A stretch of 64,000 nt of DNA. It comes from Gammaproteobacteria bacterium (GTDB taxonomy: Bacteria > Pseudomonadota > Gammaproteobacteria > Acidiferrobacterales > Sulfurifustaceae). Numbering within the stretch: position 1 is the stretch's first letter; each line of letters begins with the position of its first letter. The stretch is from contig JACQFZ010000071.1 of the NCBI GenBank assembly GCA_016199745.1, forward strand, positions 124,001-188,000, read 5' to 3'. The translations under genes and the position numbers were made by a program. Below the pieces are notes generated by a model. It saw nothing but the letters and a program-made list of their open reading frames with translations. It had not been told where the DNA came from and made no database searches. This document shows positions 20,082 to 62,843 of this stretch, one piece after another.

Positions 20082-20489
20082 ATGGAATTAGTGATTAACA
20101 AGGCATATGAAATTGCCAAAGACGCTCTCACAGAAATTCTTTTGGAACGCGCAAAGCGCGCGGTCGATGAAAATACGGCGATTGGACCGCAGGCGCTTGA
20201 GCATGTGAGAAAGGATATTGAAGCCTTAGAGAAGGAGGTAGAGGACTACGAAATACGCTTTGAAATGGCAAAAGAAGCGGTGCAACGCGGAAAGTTGGAC
20301 ATGTCTACCTACGTCCATACGTGCGTTACAACCTTTGCTTCCTCGGAGTCCAAAGGTATTGATAAGCTCATCAAGATAATAGAAGAAATCAGTGGGACCT
20401 CGACCAAGCTTGAGGAGGAAGCCCAGGCACGTATAAGCAAGCAGACGCAACAACTTCGGGATCGCTTAAAAAAGAGAGCGCGCGAATAG
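20082..20489 (+). CDS. Small coiled-coil protein of unknown function
   Basis: A 135-residue, highly charged protein predicted to be almost all helix. Heptad-like stretches occur at about residues 40-70 (RKDIEALEKEVEDYEIRFEM) and 100-135 (STKLEEEAQARISKQTQQLR). There is no signal peptide or membrane segment. The gene has a very strong ribosome site (AAGGGGGGAA) just before its ATG, so it is likely expressed. Base composition and codon use are clearly AT-richer than the flanking core genes, which suggests horizontal origin. I do not recognise the family. Confidence 0.6.
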   Translation: MELVINKAYEIAKDALTEILLERAKRAVDENTAIGPQALEHVRKDIEALEKEVEDYEIRFEMAKEAVQRGKLDMSTYVHTCVTTFASSESKGIDKLIKIIEEISGTSTKLEEEAQARISKQTQQLRDRLKKRARE

Positions 20490-21884: not shown

Positions 21885-22943
21885 ATGACTACCTCCGCCA
21901 ATCCGACACCCCGTAAAGCGGTCGCCCTAATTTCCGGCGGCCTCGATTCTATGTTGGCAGCGCGCGTGATGCAGGATCACGGCGTGCACGTCGAGGGCAT
22001 CAACTTCTATACCGGCTTTTGCGTCGAGGGGCACACGCACGCCATCCGCAACGAGCACCGCGACAAGCCGAAGCGCAACAACGCGCTGTGGGTGGCGGAA
22101 CAGCTCGGCATCAAGCTGCATATCATTGATGTGATCGAAGAATATAAGGATGTCGTGCTCAACCCGAAGCACGGCTACGGCTCGAATTTAAATCCGTGCC
22201 TCGATTGCAAAGGCTTCATGGTCGGCAAAGCGCGCGAGTGGATGGAGGCGAACGGCTTCGACTTCATCATTACCGGCGAAGTCGTCGGCCAACGGCCTAT
22301 GTCGCAGCGCAAAGACACCATGCCGGTGGTCGCGCGCGAATCGGGCGCGTTCGATCGGTTGCTGCGGCCGCTGTGCGCCAAGTTATTGGCGCCGACATTG
22401 CCGGAAGCCGAAGGCTGGGTCGACCGCGAACGACTGTTCGATTTCAACGGCCGCAGTCGCAAACCGCAGATGGCACTAGCCGCGCACTTCGGCATCGAAG
22501 AATACGCCCAGCCCGCCGGCGGCTGCTGTTTCCTGACCAACGAACAGTACTCGAACAAGCTTGCCGACATGTGGCAATCGCGCGGCGAGAAGCGCTACGA
22601 GCTCGAAGATATCCTGCTGCTCAAGGTCGGTCGCCACATCCGACCGGCGCCGCATTTCAAATTGATCATTGCCCGCGACGACGGCGAAAACAATTTTCTG
22701 CTCGGCTTCCGCAAGCGCTACACGCATTTGTTTTCCACCAGTCACAGCGGCCCGTTGGCGCTGATCGATGGCAAAATCGGCGACGACGAGCTGGAGCTGG
22801 CCGCCCGACTGACGGCGCGCTATGGCAAGGGCCGGACCGCCGAGCGCGTGGTAGTTTCTGTTACCGACACCGCCGGCAAGTCGCACGATCTTGAAGTGGC
22901 GCCGCTGCCGATCAATCAAATTCCGGTCAGCTGGTACTTATGA
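21885..22943 (+). CDS. PP-loop ATP-pyrophosphatase, MnmA/ThiI-like putative RNA sulfurtransferase
   Basis: A 352-residue cytoplasmic protein. The N-terminal PP-loop SGGLDS (about residues 17-22) binds ATP and adenylates a substrate. CLDCK (about residues 105-109) and GGCCFLT (about residues 211-217) supply cysteines suited to carrying persulfide sulfur or a metal cluster. The C-terminal part (LLLKVGRHIRPAPHFKLIIA) resembles an RNA-binding appendage. The gene overlaps tusA by ATGA, which strongly suggests sulfur transfer from TusA. It is related to tRNA thiolases but is neither canonical MnmA nor ThiI; the RNA target is unknown. Confidence 0.7.
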   Translation: MTTSANPTPRKAVALISGGLDSMLAARVMQDHGVHVEGINFYTGFCVEGHTHAIRNEHRDKPKRNNALWVAEQLGIKLHIIDVIEEYKDVVLNPKHGYGSNLNPCLDCKGFMVGKAREWMEANGFDFIITGEVVGQRPMSQRKDTMPVVARESGAFDRLLRPLCAKLLAPTLPEAEGWVDRERLFDFNGRSRKPQMALAAHFGIEEYAQPAGGCCFLTNEQYSNKLADMWQSRGEKRYELEDILLLKVGRHIRPAPHFKLIIARDDGENNFLLGFRKRYTHLFSTSHSGPLALIDGKIGDDELELAARLTARYGKGRTAERVVVSVTDTAGKSHDLEVAPLPINQIPVSWYL

Positions 22944-23170
22944 CGCACCAGGTCCTGGACGCGCGCTACCTGCTGTGTCCGCTGCCGGTGATTCGCACGC
23001 AGCAGGCGATCACCAAGCTCGTGCCCGGCGATACGCTCGAAGTTCACGCGACCGACCCGGGCGTGCTGCACGACATCCCGGCCTGGTGTCGGGTTCATGG
23101 ACATGAAGTGATAGGGACGAACAAGGTCGAGGGCGAAATCCACGTGACGGTACGCGTAAAAGCGGCATGA
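22940..23170 (+). CDS. tusA: TusA-family sulfur carrier protein
   Basis: A 76-residue protein with the hallmark CPLP motif (LDARYLLCPLPVIRTQQAI), whose Cys carries persulfide sulfur. It overlaps both the PP-loop gene and the CDF gene by four bases, so the three are translated together. TusA proteins usually deliver sulfur from IscS to the TusBCD-TusE-MnmA relay for tRNA 2-thiouridine, or act in sulfur oxidation. Here the direct neighbour is the likely acceptor. Whether this is the cell's only TusA cannot be told. Confidence 0.9.
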   Translation: MTHQVLDARYLLCPLPVIRTQQAITKLVPGDTLEVHATDPGVLHDIPAWCRVHGHEVIGTNKVEGEIHVTVRVKAA

Positions 23171-24342
23171 GCGGATCGCACGCGCATCCGCACCATCCGT
23201 TCGATACCACCAATCCCGAACGCTACCGGGCAAGCCGCCGCGTTACCTGGGTCAGCGTTGCGTTGAATATCGTGCTGACAATCGCGCAGGTGATCGTCGG
23301 CCTGGTCGGTCATTCGCAAGCGCTGATCGCCGACGGCTTTCACACCCTGTCGGACCTCATCAGCGATATCATCGTGCTGTTCGCCTTGAAGCAAGGCGCC
23401 AAGGCCGCCGATGATGAGCATCCGTACGGCCACGGCCGCATTGAGACTGCCGTCACATTGATTTTGGGCGTGCTGTTAATCGTCGTCGCCGTCGGCATCA
23501 TGTGGCGCGCCGGCGAGCGTTGGTTCGACGCGGCGCCGTTGGTGACACCGTCAGCGATTACTTTCTGGGTCGCGGTCATCACCTTCGGCGCGAAGGAGTG
23601 GCTTTACCGCTATACGTTGCGCACCGCCCAACGCTTCGACTCGGCCATGCTCAAAGCCAACGCTTGGCACCATCGCAGCGACGCGATTTCCTCGCTCATC
23701 GTCATCGCCGGTATCGGCGGCGCCATTTATGGCATCAATTATCTCGACGGCGTCGCCGCCATGTTGGTGTCGGTGATGGTGGCAAAGATCGGTATCGAGC
23801 TCAGCTGGCAAGCCCTGCGCGAATTAGTCGACACTGGCCTCGACGTCGACGACCGCGAATCGATCCGGCGCGTCATCCAAAGTGTCGACGGCGTGCGCGC
23901 ACTGCACTTATTACGTACGCGCCGCCTCGGCGACCGCGCGTTTGTCGACGTTCACATTCTGGTGGATGGCGAGCTCAGCGTTTCCGAGGGACACCACATC
24001 GGCGAAACCGTGCGCACGCGCCTGATCGATGAAATCGAACCGGTAGCCGACGTTACGGTGCATATCGATTCGGAAGAAGATTTAGACGGCGATCCGGAGG
24101 CCGACTTGCCGCTGCGCGACGAAATAGTGGCGCGGCTCGAACGTTACTTCGCGACGATTCCTGAGGCTCGGCTGATCGACCGCACGACGCTGCACTATGT
24201 CGGCGGCCACGTCGATATCGAGCTGCGCTTACCGCTGTCGTCGGCCACCACGCCGGAAACAGGCCTTGCACTGGCGGCGCGCTTCGCCGCCGCTGCCAAG
24301 ATCGATAACGACATTGGACGGGTGGAAGTATGCTTCCACTGA
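23167..24342 (+). CDS. Cation diffusion facilitator (CDF) metal exporter
   Basis: A 391-residue inner-membrane transporter with about six helices and a cytoplasmic C-terminal domain (residues about 220-300) plus a roughly 90-residue extra tail. Metal-site residues are ADGFHTLSD in the second helix and HHRSD in the fifth, an HxxxD/HxxxD pair as in zinc-type CDFs, with HPYGHGR between. CDF proteins exchange Zn, Fe, Mn or Co for protons. The start overlaps tusA. Linkage to a sulfur-transfer pair hints at metal-thiol homeostasis but does not prove it. Confidence 0.88.
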   Translation: MSGSHAHPHHPFDTTNPERYRASRRVTWVSVALNIVLTIAQVIVGLVGHSQALIADGFHTLSDLISDIIVLFALKQGAKAADDEHPYGHGRIETAVTLILGVLLIVVAVGIMWRAGERWFDAAPLVTPSAITFWVAVITFGAKEWLYRYTLRTAQRFDSAMLKANAWHHRSDAISSLIVIAGIGGAIYGINYLDGVAAMLVSVMVAKIGIELSWQALRELVDTGLDVDDRESIRRVIQSVDGVRALHLLRTRRLGDRAFVDVHILVDGELSVSEGHHIGETVRTRLIDEIEPVADVTVHIDSEEDLDGDPEADLPLRDEIVARLERYFATIPEARLIDRTTLHYVGGHVDIELRLPLSSATTPETGLALAARFAAAAKIDNDIGRVEVCFH

Positions 24343-37902: not shown

Positions 37903-37910
37903 TAATGCGC

Positions 37911-38095
37911 GCCCCCTGCGGTGTTTGTGTTGTTCCGGCATCCCTTCGAACCTAGCGTAAAGCTACGGGAGCCGAATAGTGGATGTTGTTGTGCAAGTCC
38001 GCCCTGGTAGCGGAAAGCCTGAAACATCCCTTAGGCTCCCACTTGAACCTCCCGGTTCAAGGTACTTGGGACAATACGGCACCTGCGGAGGGCGT
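37911..38095 (+). ncRNA. ssrS: 6S RNA
   Basis: About 185 nt between zapA and ygfA, the standard position. The ends pair as the closing stem (GCCCCCTGCGGTG with CACCTGCGGAGGGC). The internal helical segments GGGAGCC/GGCTCCC (about 37968-37974 and 38033-38039) and GAACC/GGTTC are present, as in other gammaproteobacterial 6S RNAs. 6S RNA mimics an open promoter, sequesters sigma-70 RNA polymerase in stationary phase, and serves as template for product RNAs. Exact ends are estimated from pairing. Confidence 0.88.
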
Positions 38096-52844: not shown

Positions 52845-52992
52845 GTCGCGCGGATAAATCCCGCGCGTAGAGTGTTAGTTATTGCTGCTGTCTCATCCTC
52901 GCAGCACGCGCGGAATATTGATAGAGTGCCCTCCGTTGTGCGCGGCAACCGTCGGCGCCGACAAAACGGAACGCGACGTTGCGAACTACGCA

Positions 52993-54585
52993 ATGAGTGA
53001 CCGCCTCATAGAAGTGAATACACCAGACTCCACGCTGAGCACGTCCCCGCCCGCCCGCGACACCAAACAGTCGCTGTCGGTCGATGAAACGCGTGCACAC
53101 ACCGGTGCCGCCGATTTGCGCTCAATCATGGAAGCTATGCCGGCCGCCGTCATCATTGCCGACGATGTCGATTGCCGGCAGCTACGCGCTAACGCCGCCG
53201 GCGAAGAATTACTGCAAGCATTAGCGCAGACCGTCGCCGGCGATGAACACGATTTCCTGCCGAGCGAATTACTGCACTTGCAGCGCGCCGCCGCTGGCGA
53301 CGAAATTCGCAATTGGGAAATCCAAGTGAAGATGGGTGAACAGATTCGCTACTTCCTTGGTAATACCTTACCGCAGCGCAGCGAGCGTGGTGCAACCTGC
53401 GGCGCCGTTGCTGCGCTCGTCGATATCACCGACCGTATCCGTGCTGAACACGCGCTCAAAGAAGCCGACCGTCGCAAAGACAAACTCCTCAGCATCGTCG
53501 CCCATGAGTTGCGCAATCCAATTACGCCGATCAAGACCGCGCTCGACATCATTCAGCACAGCCTCAACGATCTCGGCCGACGCGAGTGGGCGCTGCAAGT
53601 CATCGACCGGCAACTGTTGCAGCTGACGCGCATCGTCGACGACCTGCTAGAGCTGAGCCGCATCGTTAACGGCAAGATCGCGTTGAAGCGCGAGATGACG
53701 AGCCTGCGCACTGTTGTGTCGCAAGCGATCGAAACCGTACGGCCGCTGATCAGCGCCAACCGCCACGGCTTGCGTGTCGACTTGCCGTTAACCGAAGTTC
53801 GACTGTACGTCGATCCGGTGCGACTGGGACGTGCCATCGCCAACTTGCTGGCGAACGCTGCCAAATTCACCGCGCCCGGCGGCACCCTCGCCGTGGTTGG
53901 CCTGTTCAAGGAAGATACCGTCGAGATTCGCGTCGAAGACAACGGCCAGGGCATCGATCAGGAAGTGTTGCCACGCGTGTTCGACCTATTCGCCCACAGC
54001 GGCAGCGAGATGGCCGACAATCAGGGCGGGCTCGGTATCGGCCTTGCGATCGTCCGCCGCATCGTCGATCTGCACGGCGGCACTATCAGCGCCCATAGCG
54101 ACGGTCGCGATCGCGGTAGCAAGTTCTTTATCCGCTTGCCGGTCGCTACTGCCGAACCGACCCAGCAGAAGAACCAACCCGACAGAGCTTGGCACGCGCC
54201 GCTGGAAGCACGGCGCGTACTCATCGTCGACGACAACCGCGATCTCACCGATAGCATGGCTGAGTTATTGCGCTTGAGCGGCCATGAAGTCGGCCGGCAC
54301 TACGAAGGTGACGGCGTGATCGAAAAGGCGTTGGCGTTCAAGGCGAACGTACTGCTCATCGACTTAGGCCTACCCGGCAAGACCGGTTTCGAAATCGCCC
54401 GGCTCGTGCGCCAGCACCCAGATCTGAAAAAAGTGCCCCTCATCGCCATCAGCGGCTACGGCCAACCGGAAGACATCGAACGCAGCCGTAATGCCGGCTT
54501 CGATTCGCATCTGTTGAAACCGGTCGATGCTCAACTGCTGATCCAGTTAATCGGTGCTACTACGCCCGTCGTCGGCGCGCGCTAG
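52993..54585 (+). CDS. Hybrid histidine kinase (PAS-like-HisKA-HATPase-REC), first of three
   Basis: From ATG 52993 about 530 residues; an in-frame extension to 52882 has no better start. No membrane helices. A degenerate PAS-like sensor (SIMEAMPAAVIIADDVDCRQ) is followed by HisKA with His in SIVAHELRNPITPIKTALDI, then ATPase motifs LLANAAKFTAPGG, EDNGQGID and GGLGIGLAIVRRIVDLHGG. A C-terminal receiver is VLIVDDNRDLTDSM with phospho-acceptor in LLIDLGLPGKTGFE and KP in HLLKPVD. Its domain string matches the back half of the third kinase, so they are probably paralogues. Confidence 0.88.
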   Translation: MSDRLIEVNTPDSTLSTSPPARDTKQSLSVDETRAHTGAADLRSIMEAMPAAVIIADDVDCRQLRANAAGEELLQALAQTVAGDEHDFLPSELLHLQRAAAGDEIRNWEIQVKMGEQIRYFLGNTLPQRSERGATCGAVAALVDITDRIRAEHALKEADRRKDKLLSIVAHELRNPITPIKTALDIIQHSLNDLGRREWALQVIDRQLLQLTRIVDDLLELSRIVNGKIALKREMTSLRTVVSQAIETVRPLISANRHGLRVDLPLTEVRLYVDPVRLGRAIANLLANAAKFTAPGGTLAVVGLFKEDTVEIRVEDNGQGIDQEVLPRVFDLFAHSGSEMADNQGGLGIGLAIVRRIVDLHGGTISAHSDGRDRGSKFFIRLPVATAEPTQQKNQPDRAWHAPLEARRVLIVDDNRDLTDSMAELLRLSGHEVGRHYEGDGVIEKALAFKANVLLIDLGLPGKTGFEIARLVRQHPDLKKVPLIAISGYGQPEDIERSRNAGFDSHLLKPVDAQLLIQLIGATTPVVGAR

Positions 54586-54701
54586 CGCACCAGCTACATT
54601 AGGCACATATATAGCGAGGTATTTGATTCGCACGTTGTGGTTACCCCACTCGCGGGTTAACTTTAGCTATGCCCCCTCAACCTCCAGAGGAAGGATCTTC
54701 T

Positions 54702-60980
<6,279 letters not shown>

Positions 60981-61008: not shown

Positions 61009-61100
61009 CCCCTCCCCCCTTGCGGGGGAGGGGAAGGGGGAGAGGGGTGACCATACTAAGCCCCCGCTCTCCTGTCCTCTCCCCCGCAAGGGGGGAGAGG
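61009..61100. repeat. Dispersed CCCTCTCCC paired-hairpin repeat, copy 4
   Basis: CCCCTCCCCC/GGGGGAGGGG (61009-61018 with 61024-61033) and CCTCTCCCCC/GGGGGAGAGG (61076-61085 with 61091-61100) form two facing hairpins, and the outer sequences are also mutually complementary. The layout matches 8597-8703. It lies between the giant kinase and the third hybrid kinase and may limit read-through. Confidence 0.82.
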
Positions 61101-61136
61101 GACGTTCTACTTCGGAGCCGAGGCAAGTCGGACCCC

Positions 61137-62843
61137 ATGACTGAAGACAAAATTAATATCCTGCTGGTCGATGACCAGCCGTCGCGCCTACTCACCTACG
61201 AGGCGATTCTGGCCACACTCGGACAAAATCTGGTTAAGGCGCAATCCGGCACCGAAGCGCTGCTGCGATTGATGGAGACCGAATTCGCGGCGATCTTGCT
61301 CGACGTCAGTATGCCGGGTATGGACGGCTTCGAAACCGCCGCCATCATTCACCAACATCCGCGTTTCGAACGCACACCGATCATCTTCGTCACCGGCGTG
61401 CATGTTACCGACCCCGATCGATTACGCGGCTATCAAATGGGCGCGGTCGATTATGTTTATGTGCCGGTGATCCCGGAGATCCTGCGCGGCAAAGTACAGG
61501 TGCTGGTGCAGTTGTACCGGCAACAACACGAGCTTAAGCGACTCAATACGAGTCTCGCCGTCGCCAATGAAGAGTTGGCGGAAGCGCATCAGGCACTGAA
61601 GGCGGAAAATACCCGTGAGCTGTATAAGCTCAATAGCAATCTCGAGCTCGCCAATATCGAGCTGAAGGCCGAAATCGCCGAGCGCAAACGCGCGCAAGAG
61701 GCACTGCAGGCGGCAGCGCAGCGTAAAGACGAATTCCTGGCGATCCTGGCGCACGAGTTACGTAATCCGCTGTCGGCGATCCACAACGGCGTACAGCTCA
61801 TGTACGTGCGCCCGATCGACGACCCGCAGTTGCTGTGGGCACGCGATTCGCTCGGCCATCAAGTAAAACATCTGAAACGCTTGATCGACGACCTGCTCGA
61901 TGTCTCGCGCCTCTCCAGCGGCCGCGTGAAGCTGCAACGCGAAGACCTCGACCTGGCGCTGATCGTCGAGCGCGCCGTCGAGATGAGCCGGCCGATGATC
62001 GAGGCACGTCGTCACACGTTAACCATCAATCCGTCAGCCACGCCGATTTACGTCAATGGCGACCTCGTGCGACTGACACAGGTGCTCGACAACCTCATTA
62101 GCAACGCCGCCAAATACACCAACGAAGGCGGCGCCATCACGATTAGCGTCGGTGTGGATACTAACGCACAGGCGATGGTTTCCGTCCGCGATACCGGTCA
62201 AGGTATCCCGCCGGCCATGTTAGAGCGCGTCTTCGAACTGTTCACCCAAGCGACCGCCTCGCTCGATCGTAGCCAAGGCGGTCTTGGCATCGGCTTGGCG
62301 CTGGCGCGCGGCCTAGTCAACTCACACGGCGGCACCGTGCGTGCCGTCAGCGAAGGCAGCGGCCTAGGTTCCGAGTTCATCGTCTGCTTACCGTGCGTAA
62401 CCCCGATCGTGGAAACACCGGCGGAGCCGGAAAGCAACGGCATAGCCCACACCTTGGAGCAAATGCGGGTGCTGATCGTCGACGACAATGTCGATTCGGC
62501 CCAAGGTCTCGGCATGTGGCTCGAAACCGTTGGCCACAAAGTGCGGCTGGCACATACCGGCGATGAAGGTTTTAAAGCCGCGTTGGAATTCCACCCGGAT
62601 GCGGTGTTGCTCGATATCGGCCTACCGGGATTGAACGGTTATGAGCTGGCGAAACGCCTGCGCAAGTATCCGCAACTCAGCGACGTGCCGCTGATCGCCG
62701 TCACTGGCTTTAGCGGCGAAGCCGACCGTCATCAAGCGACAGCAGCCGGCTTCGATCATTATCTGGTCAAGCCGATCGACTACGATACGTTGCTGCGGGC
62801 GCTAGCCCAACCTACAGCCACGGTGGCCGCGGGAAGTTACTGA
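61137..62843 (+). CDS. REC-HisKA-HATPase-REC hybrid kinase, third of three
   Basis: About 568 residues from ATG 61137; an upstream frame through the repeat is rejected. The N-terminal receiver has ILLVDDQPSRLLTYEAIL and LLDVSMPGMDGFE, but the normal KP motif reads YVYVPVIPE, so the conserved Lys is missing. A coiled coil of about 70 residues follows, then HisKA (AILAHELRNPLSAIHNGV), ATPase motifs (LISNAAKYTNEGG, DTGQGIPP, GGLGIGLALARGLVNSHGG), and an intact C-terminal receiver (VLIVDDNVDSAQGL, LLDIGLPGLNGYE, YLVKPID). It may relay signals from the giant kinase. Confidence 0.9.
   Translation: MTEDKINILLVDDQPSRLLTYEAILATLGQNLVKAQSGTEALLRLMETEFAAILLDVSMPGMDGFETAAIIHQHPRFERTPIIFVTGVHVTDPDRLRGYQMGAVDYVYVPVIPEILRGKVQVLVQLYRQQHELKRLNTSLAVANEELAEAHQALKAENTRELYKLNSNLELANIELKAEIAERKRAQEALQAAAQRKDEFLAILAHELRNPLSAIHNGVQLMYVRPIDDPQLLWARDSLGHQVKHLKRLIDDLLDVSRLSSGRVKLQREDLDLALIVERAVEMSRPMIEARRHTLTINPSATPIYVNGDLVRLTQVLDNLISNAAKYTNEGGAITISVGVDTNAQAMVSVRDTGQGIPPAMLERVFELFTQATASLDRSQGGLGIGLALARGLVNSHGGTVRAVSEGSGLGSEFIVCLPCVTPIVETPAEPESNGIAHTLEQMRVLIVDDNVDSAQGLGMWLETVGHKVRLAHTGDEGFKAALEFHPDAVLLDIGLPGLNGYELAKRLRKYPQLSDVPLIAVTGFSGEADRHQATAAGFDHYLVKPIDYDTLLRALAQPTATVAAGSY

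Follow-up and report, generated by a model that had tools for sequence, protein, structure and literature searches.

The locus lies in a 64,000-nt stretch of gammaproteobacterial DNA (hereafter the window, i.e. the whole stretch that was analysed) and consists of three genes, encoding a PP-loop protein, a TusA-like sulfur carrier and a CDF metal exporter (Table 1). The stop codon of the PP-loop gene overlaps the start of tusA in an ATGA at 22940-22943, and the stop codon of tusA overlaps the start of the CDF gene in an ATGA at 23167-23170. The three genes with two overlapping junctions given in a preliminary description of this DNA are therefore borne out by the list of open reading frames, all on the plus strand, and by both ATGA sites, and the SGGLDS, CxxC and GGCC motifs that it had named are all present in the translation (residues 17-22, 105-108 and 212-215). 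It had overlooked the C-terminal NFACT-R_2 domain of the PP-loop protein.

Table 1. Positions in the window of the three genes and of the motifs and domains of the PP-loop protein
Feature	Position	Strand	Description
PP-loop/NFACT-R_2 gene	21885..22943	+	352 aa; predicted tRNA thiouridine synthase
PP-loop SGGLDS	21933..21950	+	residues 17-22; SGG.DS in 154/155 usable orthologue rows
CxxC (C105, C108)	22197..22208	+	each in 155/155 rows
TGEVVGQRPMSQ	22272..22307	+	residues 130-141; counterpart of ThiI ATP-binding DI-loop
GGCC	22518..22529	+	residues 212-215; C215 in 155/155, C214 in 154/155 rows
NFACT-R_2 domain	22629..22937	+	PF18297, residues 249-351, E 1.6e-31; predicted RNA-binding module
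TusA-like sulfur carrier gene	22940..23170	+	76 aa, CPLP motif; PF01206, E 4.7e-22
CDF metal exporter gene	23167..24342	+	391 aa; PF01545, E 5e-48; PF16916, E 5.6e-23

A promoter scan found none against a mean of 1.3 in shuffled sequences, a terminator scan found 6 against a shuffle mean of 3.6 (sd 2.3), and the Rfam scan of the window gave no match near the three genes. The sole Rfam match of the window at the gathering score was a 6S RNA (RF00013, 81 bits) at 37910-38095 (+). Elsewhere in the window, a 135-aa coiled-coil-like ORF at 20082-20489 (+) had no Pfam match at E 0.001, and the frame at 54669-60980 (+) encodes a hybrid histidine kinase of 2103 aa, in which 11 HAMP matches accompany GAF, HisKA and HATPase domains and three receiver domains; further hybrid kinases flank it at 52882-54585 and 61020-62843.

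Domain architecture and affinities of the PP-loop protein

The PP-loop domain was matched in the Pfam scan by both the MnmA-type profile tRNA_Me_trans (2.4e-11) and the ThiI profile (3.3e-08), the former scoring better for the window protein. Among 77 aligned family members, NFACT-R_2 and tRNA_Me_trans were found in all 77 and ThiI in 76, and NFACT-R_2 was also present in both scanned members from other classes. The structure model of the protein had a mean pLDDT of 89.9, and its C-terminal domain matched the NFACT-R domains of FBPS, RqcH and CCDC25 (Z 11.6-14.3), so that NFACT-R_2 is predicted to be an RNA-binding module taking the place of the NFLD-THUMP module of ThiI. The protein resembles ThiI in its PP-loop, its DI-loop signature and its active-site cysteine loop, and differs in having NFACT-R_2 at the C-terminus where ThiI has NFLD-THUMP at the N-terminus, and in having TusA next door. 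Neither an NFLD-THUMP module nor a rhodanese domain was found in it by the Pfam scan, and its PP-loop begins as early as residue 17.

Cysteine conservation was read from 155 orthologue rows, in which some genomes are present in both locus sets described below. Besides the cysteines listed in Table 1, C46 was conserved in 154 and C164 in 135 of these rows. In the alignment, C108 corresponded to the first catalytic cysteine of MnmA, and C215 to both the second MnmA cysteine and the catalytic-loop cysteine of ThiI. The protein thus resembles MnmA in its PP-loop and in two catalytic cysteine positions, and differs from it in that the family lacks TGHY (0/155 orthologue rows, 123/126 MnmA) and coexists with a true MnmA in nearly all genomes (see below). 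The pattern of C105, C108 and C215 is also similar to that of methanogen ThiI without a rhodanese domain, in which, according to the consulted part of the source, a CxxC and a third cysteine bind a [3Fe-4S] cluster (PMC5372739).

The preliminary description had held that the protein is neither a typical MnmA nor ThiI, and the curated NCBIfam models agreed: it scored 45.2 bits with TIGR00420 (MnmA; cut-off 236.95) and 32.8 bits with TIGR00342 (ThiI; cut-off 264.5), far under both. The comparisons of the catalytic domain by structure and by profile disagreed on which of the two is closer. The signature TGE..GQ plus SQ was present in 153/155 orthologue rows, in 9/12 ThiI and in 0/126 MnmA sequences; its counterpart in Thermotoga maritima ThiI, the TGExxGQ..SQ loop, touches the ribose and phosphates of ATP as described in the consulted part of PMC4041423. 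The first row of VIA-align was the ThiI-RNA structure 4kr6 (Z 15.1, rmsd 2.8, 171 aligned residues), with unrelated PP-loop proteins within 1 Z of it and the best MnmA row at Z 13.3. Foldseek, on the other hand, placed MnmA 2deu first (E 4.8e-08; best ThiI 1.2e-06), and the MnmA profile outscored the ThiI profile in seven of eight equal-sized draws. LarE sulfur transferases matched the PP-loop domain at Z 12.4-14.1, and TtuA also appeared as a structural match.

The proposed check by phylogeny gave a divided answer. A catalytic-domain tree was built from 46 rows, namely 15 family members, 14 MnmA, 12 ThiI and 5 TtcA, and its best topology grouped the family with ThiI at a support of 96/94, with long branches flagged, while the alternative grouping with MnmA was not rejected (p-AU 0.388). 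A sequence relationship to TtcA was not supported, the hhalign probabilities being 2.6 and 5.5 (E 0.018 and 0.007) with only five TtcA rows available.

Linkage to TusA and to the CDF exporter

Gene order was read in two sets of loci. The close set comprised the best 80 of 196 relatives from a scan of genome contigs; because this set leans to close relatives, a second set was drawn from 149 genomes of the class (the class sample), with close to one genome for each family. Of these genomes 79 carried PF18297, and all 79 loci were read. Within the close set (best 80 of 196), TusA was directly downstream in 80/80 loci by tblastn and in 79/79 loci with at least 250 nt downstream by HMM. In the family-balanced loci, it lay on the same strand at most 600 nt downstream in 64/76, three of the 79 ending at a contig edge; an adjacent TusA was missing in the other 12 of the 76 (L084, L098, L102, L142, L143, L146, L158, L162, L165, L166, L168 and L169). 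TusA also adjoined the PP-loop gene in all seven loci fetched from other classes, amid other surrounding genes; these seven were drawn from the 30 PF18297 positives outside the class of the window in a phylum sample. In six of them (L178, L179, L181, L182, L183 and L185), the ORF upstream of the PP-loop gene contains MVAPSGMMDGM and is presumably HemB, and the glnA-ntrB neighbourhood is absent.

In the 143 loci where both ORFs were measurable, with start codons picked by script, the ATGA offset was seen for tusA in 72, its start fell within -10 to 0 nt of the stop codon in 95, and 142 of the 143 neighbouring TusA proteins had the CPxP motif. One locus of the class sample (L171, genome G028) retained a remnant of the PP-loop gene with an in-frame stop, with tusA and the CDF gene still adjoining. 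These observations mark the arrangement as more than a coincidence and support the view that the PP-loop gene and tusA form a dedicated two-gene pair.

The exporter behaved otherwise. Its domains were over the cut-offs in the window (Cation_efflux 163.9 bits, ZT_dimer 81.2 bits), and the D..H...D motif, which we take to be of the putative zinc type, was present in all 87 neighbouring CDF proteins of usable length. About 90 residues of the window protein (303-391) extend past the ZT_dimer match at 226-302 and are perhaps a second ZT_dimer-like domain. For the exporter, the loci counted were those extending 1.4 kb or more downstream, many of the family-balanced ones holding only about 1.5 kb. 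A CDF gene lay within 4 kb on the same strand in 49/76 closer loci (from the best 80 of 196 relatives), 40/74 family-balanced loci and 1/7 loci from other classes. It was thus absent from 34/74 family-balanced and 6/7 other-class loci where TusA remains, and glnA comes next after tusA in many of the loci that lack the exporter. The CDF exporter therefore appears to be an optional neighbour, an operon passenger outside the system. The dedicated thiolation system of three genes proposed in the preliminary description accordingly shrinks to two, as the CDF gene is not consistently conserved beside the PP-loop gene: the PP-loop/TusA pair is supported, and membership of the third gene is not.

Distribution relative to ThiI and other sulfur-transfer genes

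Full-length ThiI was defined as a TIGR00342 match of at least 246 bits, and 10 of the 11 such matches in the class sample were over the curated cut-off. ThiI was found in 0/79 PF18297 carriers and in 11/70 other genomes of the class sample (n=149); the phylum sample (n=199) had PF18297 in 34 genomes, ThiI in 70 and both in none; and a larger class sample (n=377) had 181, 32 (29 over the cut-off) and none, respectively. The Fisher p values were 1.6e-4, 7.4e-8 and 2.3e-10, all of which ignore the relatedness of the genomes. In the union of these three overlapping samples, 224 genomes with PF18297 and 98 with full-length ThiI had no overlap. The exclusion, which the preliminary description had overlooked, holds outside the class of the window too. 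PF18297 also matches control genomes such as that of Bacillus subtilis, where we assume the matches to be RqcH-type proteins; every PF18297 locus of the class sample matched the PP-loop protein (the remnant at L171 partly), and the n=199 and n=377 counts are of PF18297 matches as such, whatever the rest of the protein. Among the carriers is a methanotroph in cultivation, Methylotuvimicrobium buryatense 5G (locus L055).

To examine the exclusion against relatedness, an MnmA marker tree was built for 126 genomes of the class sample, of which 61 were carriers, 11 had ThiI and 54 had neither. The ThiI rows looked scattered in it, with 10 changes for 11 rows, in a topology where only 9 of 123 inner branches were well supported, too few to give a sign test any power. 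Since 59/149 class genomes had neither ThiI nor PF18297, the absence of ThiI alone does not predict the PP-loop/NFACT-R_2 protein, and those genomes would either lack 4-thiouridine (s4U) or use a third route.

MnmA was present in 77/79 carriers of the class sample, including one partial match, which rules out the PP-loop protein as an MnmA substitute. A substitute for TtcA is disfavoured, as 69/79 carriers had a TtcA or TtcA-like match (E 1e-50), although the high-scoring band was reached in only 31/79 carriers against 39/70 non-carriers (p 0.05). TtcA matches formed two bands across the 149 genomes: in 70 genomes they exceeded the cut-off, and in 50 they fell short of it, at 187-242 bits. TusD was over the cut-off in 50/79 carriers and 17/70 non-carriers; the other 29/79 carriers had none over it, some of them having weaker matches. 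The genome of the window itself (98% complete) encodes MnmA, TtcA, TusD and two TusA genes, and no full-length ThiI was found in it.

The coupling of the genes, together with the carriers without TusD over the cut-off, suggests direct transfer from TusA to the PP-loop protein. A bypass of the TusBCD/E relay, as the preliminary description had supposed, is plausible, the relay being judged here from TusD alone, but TusD is commoner in carriers than in non-carriers and is present in the genome of the window.

Proposed function, alternatives and relation to known systems

We propose that the PP-loop/NFACT-R_2 protein and its coupled TusA form an RNA thiolation system that stands in for ThiI and most likely makes s4U at position 8 of tRNA, a reading to which we give a probability of about two in three. 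Both the predicted RNA-binding domain and the mutual exclusion of the protein and ThiI point toward tRNA as the target. In the proposed mechanism, NFACT-R would grip the tRNA in place of NFLD-THUMP, and ATP binding and adenylation of the uridine would fall to the PP-loop and the GExxGQ..SQ loop. TusA, presumably translationally coupled to the PP-loop gene, would receive a persulfide from a cysteine desulfurase and pass the sulfur on to cysteines of the active site (C105/C108 and C214/C215). These may react as a persulfide/disulfide pair, like the cysteines of MnmA, or bind an Fe-S cluster, like those of methanogen ThiI. The architecture, the motifs, the TusA linkage and, in the samples, the exclusion are observed; tRNA as the substrate, position U8, the direct transfer and the cysteine chemistry are inferred. 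We put forward more tentatively, at slightly less than an even chance, the full picture of a ThiI-independent s4U8 synthase that is multi-cysteine and possibly Fe-S-dependent, grips tRNA by NFACT-R, is served by a dedicated TusA donor without TusBCD/E or rhodanese, and provides the main 4-thiouridine route in about half of the families sampled within the class.

The pair may instead act at a different position or on a different RNA, making s2U, s2C or a thiolated nucleoside at a new site by MnmA-like chemistry, the absence of ThiI being a coincidence of lineage. The location of the cysteines at MnmA positions and the lean of the profile, Foldseek and Pfam scores toward MnmA would suit such a target, as would the slightly lower frequency of high-scoring TtcA in carriers and exclusion statistics that take no account of relatedness; the DI-loop signature of ThiI, the retention of MnmA and of TtcA or TtcA-like proteins by most carriers, and the separation of 224 from 98 genomes, also beyond the class, argue against it, and we regard this alternative as rather unlikely. 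Much less probable is a role outside RNA, with TusA as the carrier for sulfur insertion into a cofactor or for sulfur oxidation: LarE matches the PP-loop domain and PF18297 accompanies TusD-family proteins, yet the fused domain, whose fold is known from ribosome-bound RqcH, is present in every one of the 77 members, and in more than a third of the carriers no TusD passes the cut-off. A role of the CDF exporter in protecting thiols or in providing the enzyme with a metal is the least probable reading, as the tusA/CDF overlap in the window and the CDF genes of many loci are outweighed by its absence from so many others, where TusA stays and glnA often follows.

Burroughs and Aravind reportedly predicted in 2014 a tRNA 4-thiouridylation pathway in which the NFACT RNA-binding domain occurs in other prokaryotic proteins together with TusA-like proteins. 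That pathway, as reported, shares with the present locus both the fusion of a PP-loop thiouridylase to NFACT-R and the link to TusA-like proteins, found here in 64/76, 79/79 (best 80 of 196) and 7/7 loci. On that basis, the pair described here is a member of a previously predicted system and its novelty is modest; what this study adds, as far as we have checked, is the mutual exclusion of the protein and ThiI in the samples and the reading of the CDF exporter as optional. In Thaumarchaeota, a PF02568-PF18297 protein, with the same ThiI and NFACT-R_2 Pfam domains, serves as a marker of 4-thiouridylation; it differs in being archaeal and known by annotation only, and TusA is unmentioned in the consulted part of the source (PMC9239080). 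An assay of the PP-loop/NFACT-R_2 protein was not found in the accessible parts of the literature searched on NFACT, PF18297, TusA and ThiI, and searches joining NFACT with thiouridine and PP-loop, or with thiouridylase, found no paper.

If the proposed s4U8 function is true, many bacteria that lack ThiI would have an enzyme and a sulfur donor assigned to a classic tRNA modification. The 4-thiouridine of tRNA has roles in tRNA stability and in the response to near-UV light. For TusA, it would mean a partner served directly, without the TusBCD/E-MnmA relay.
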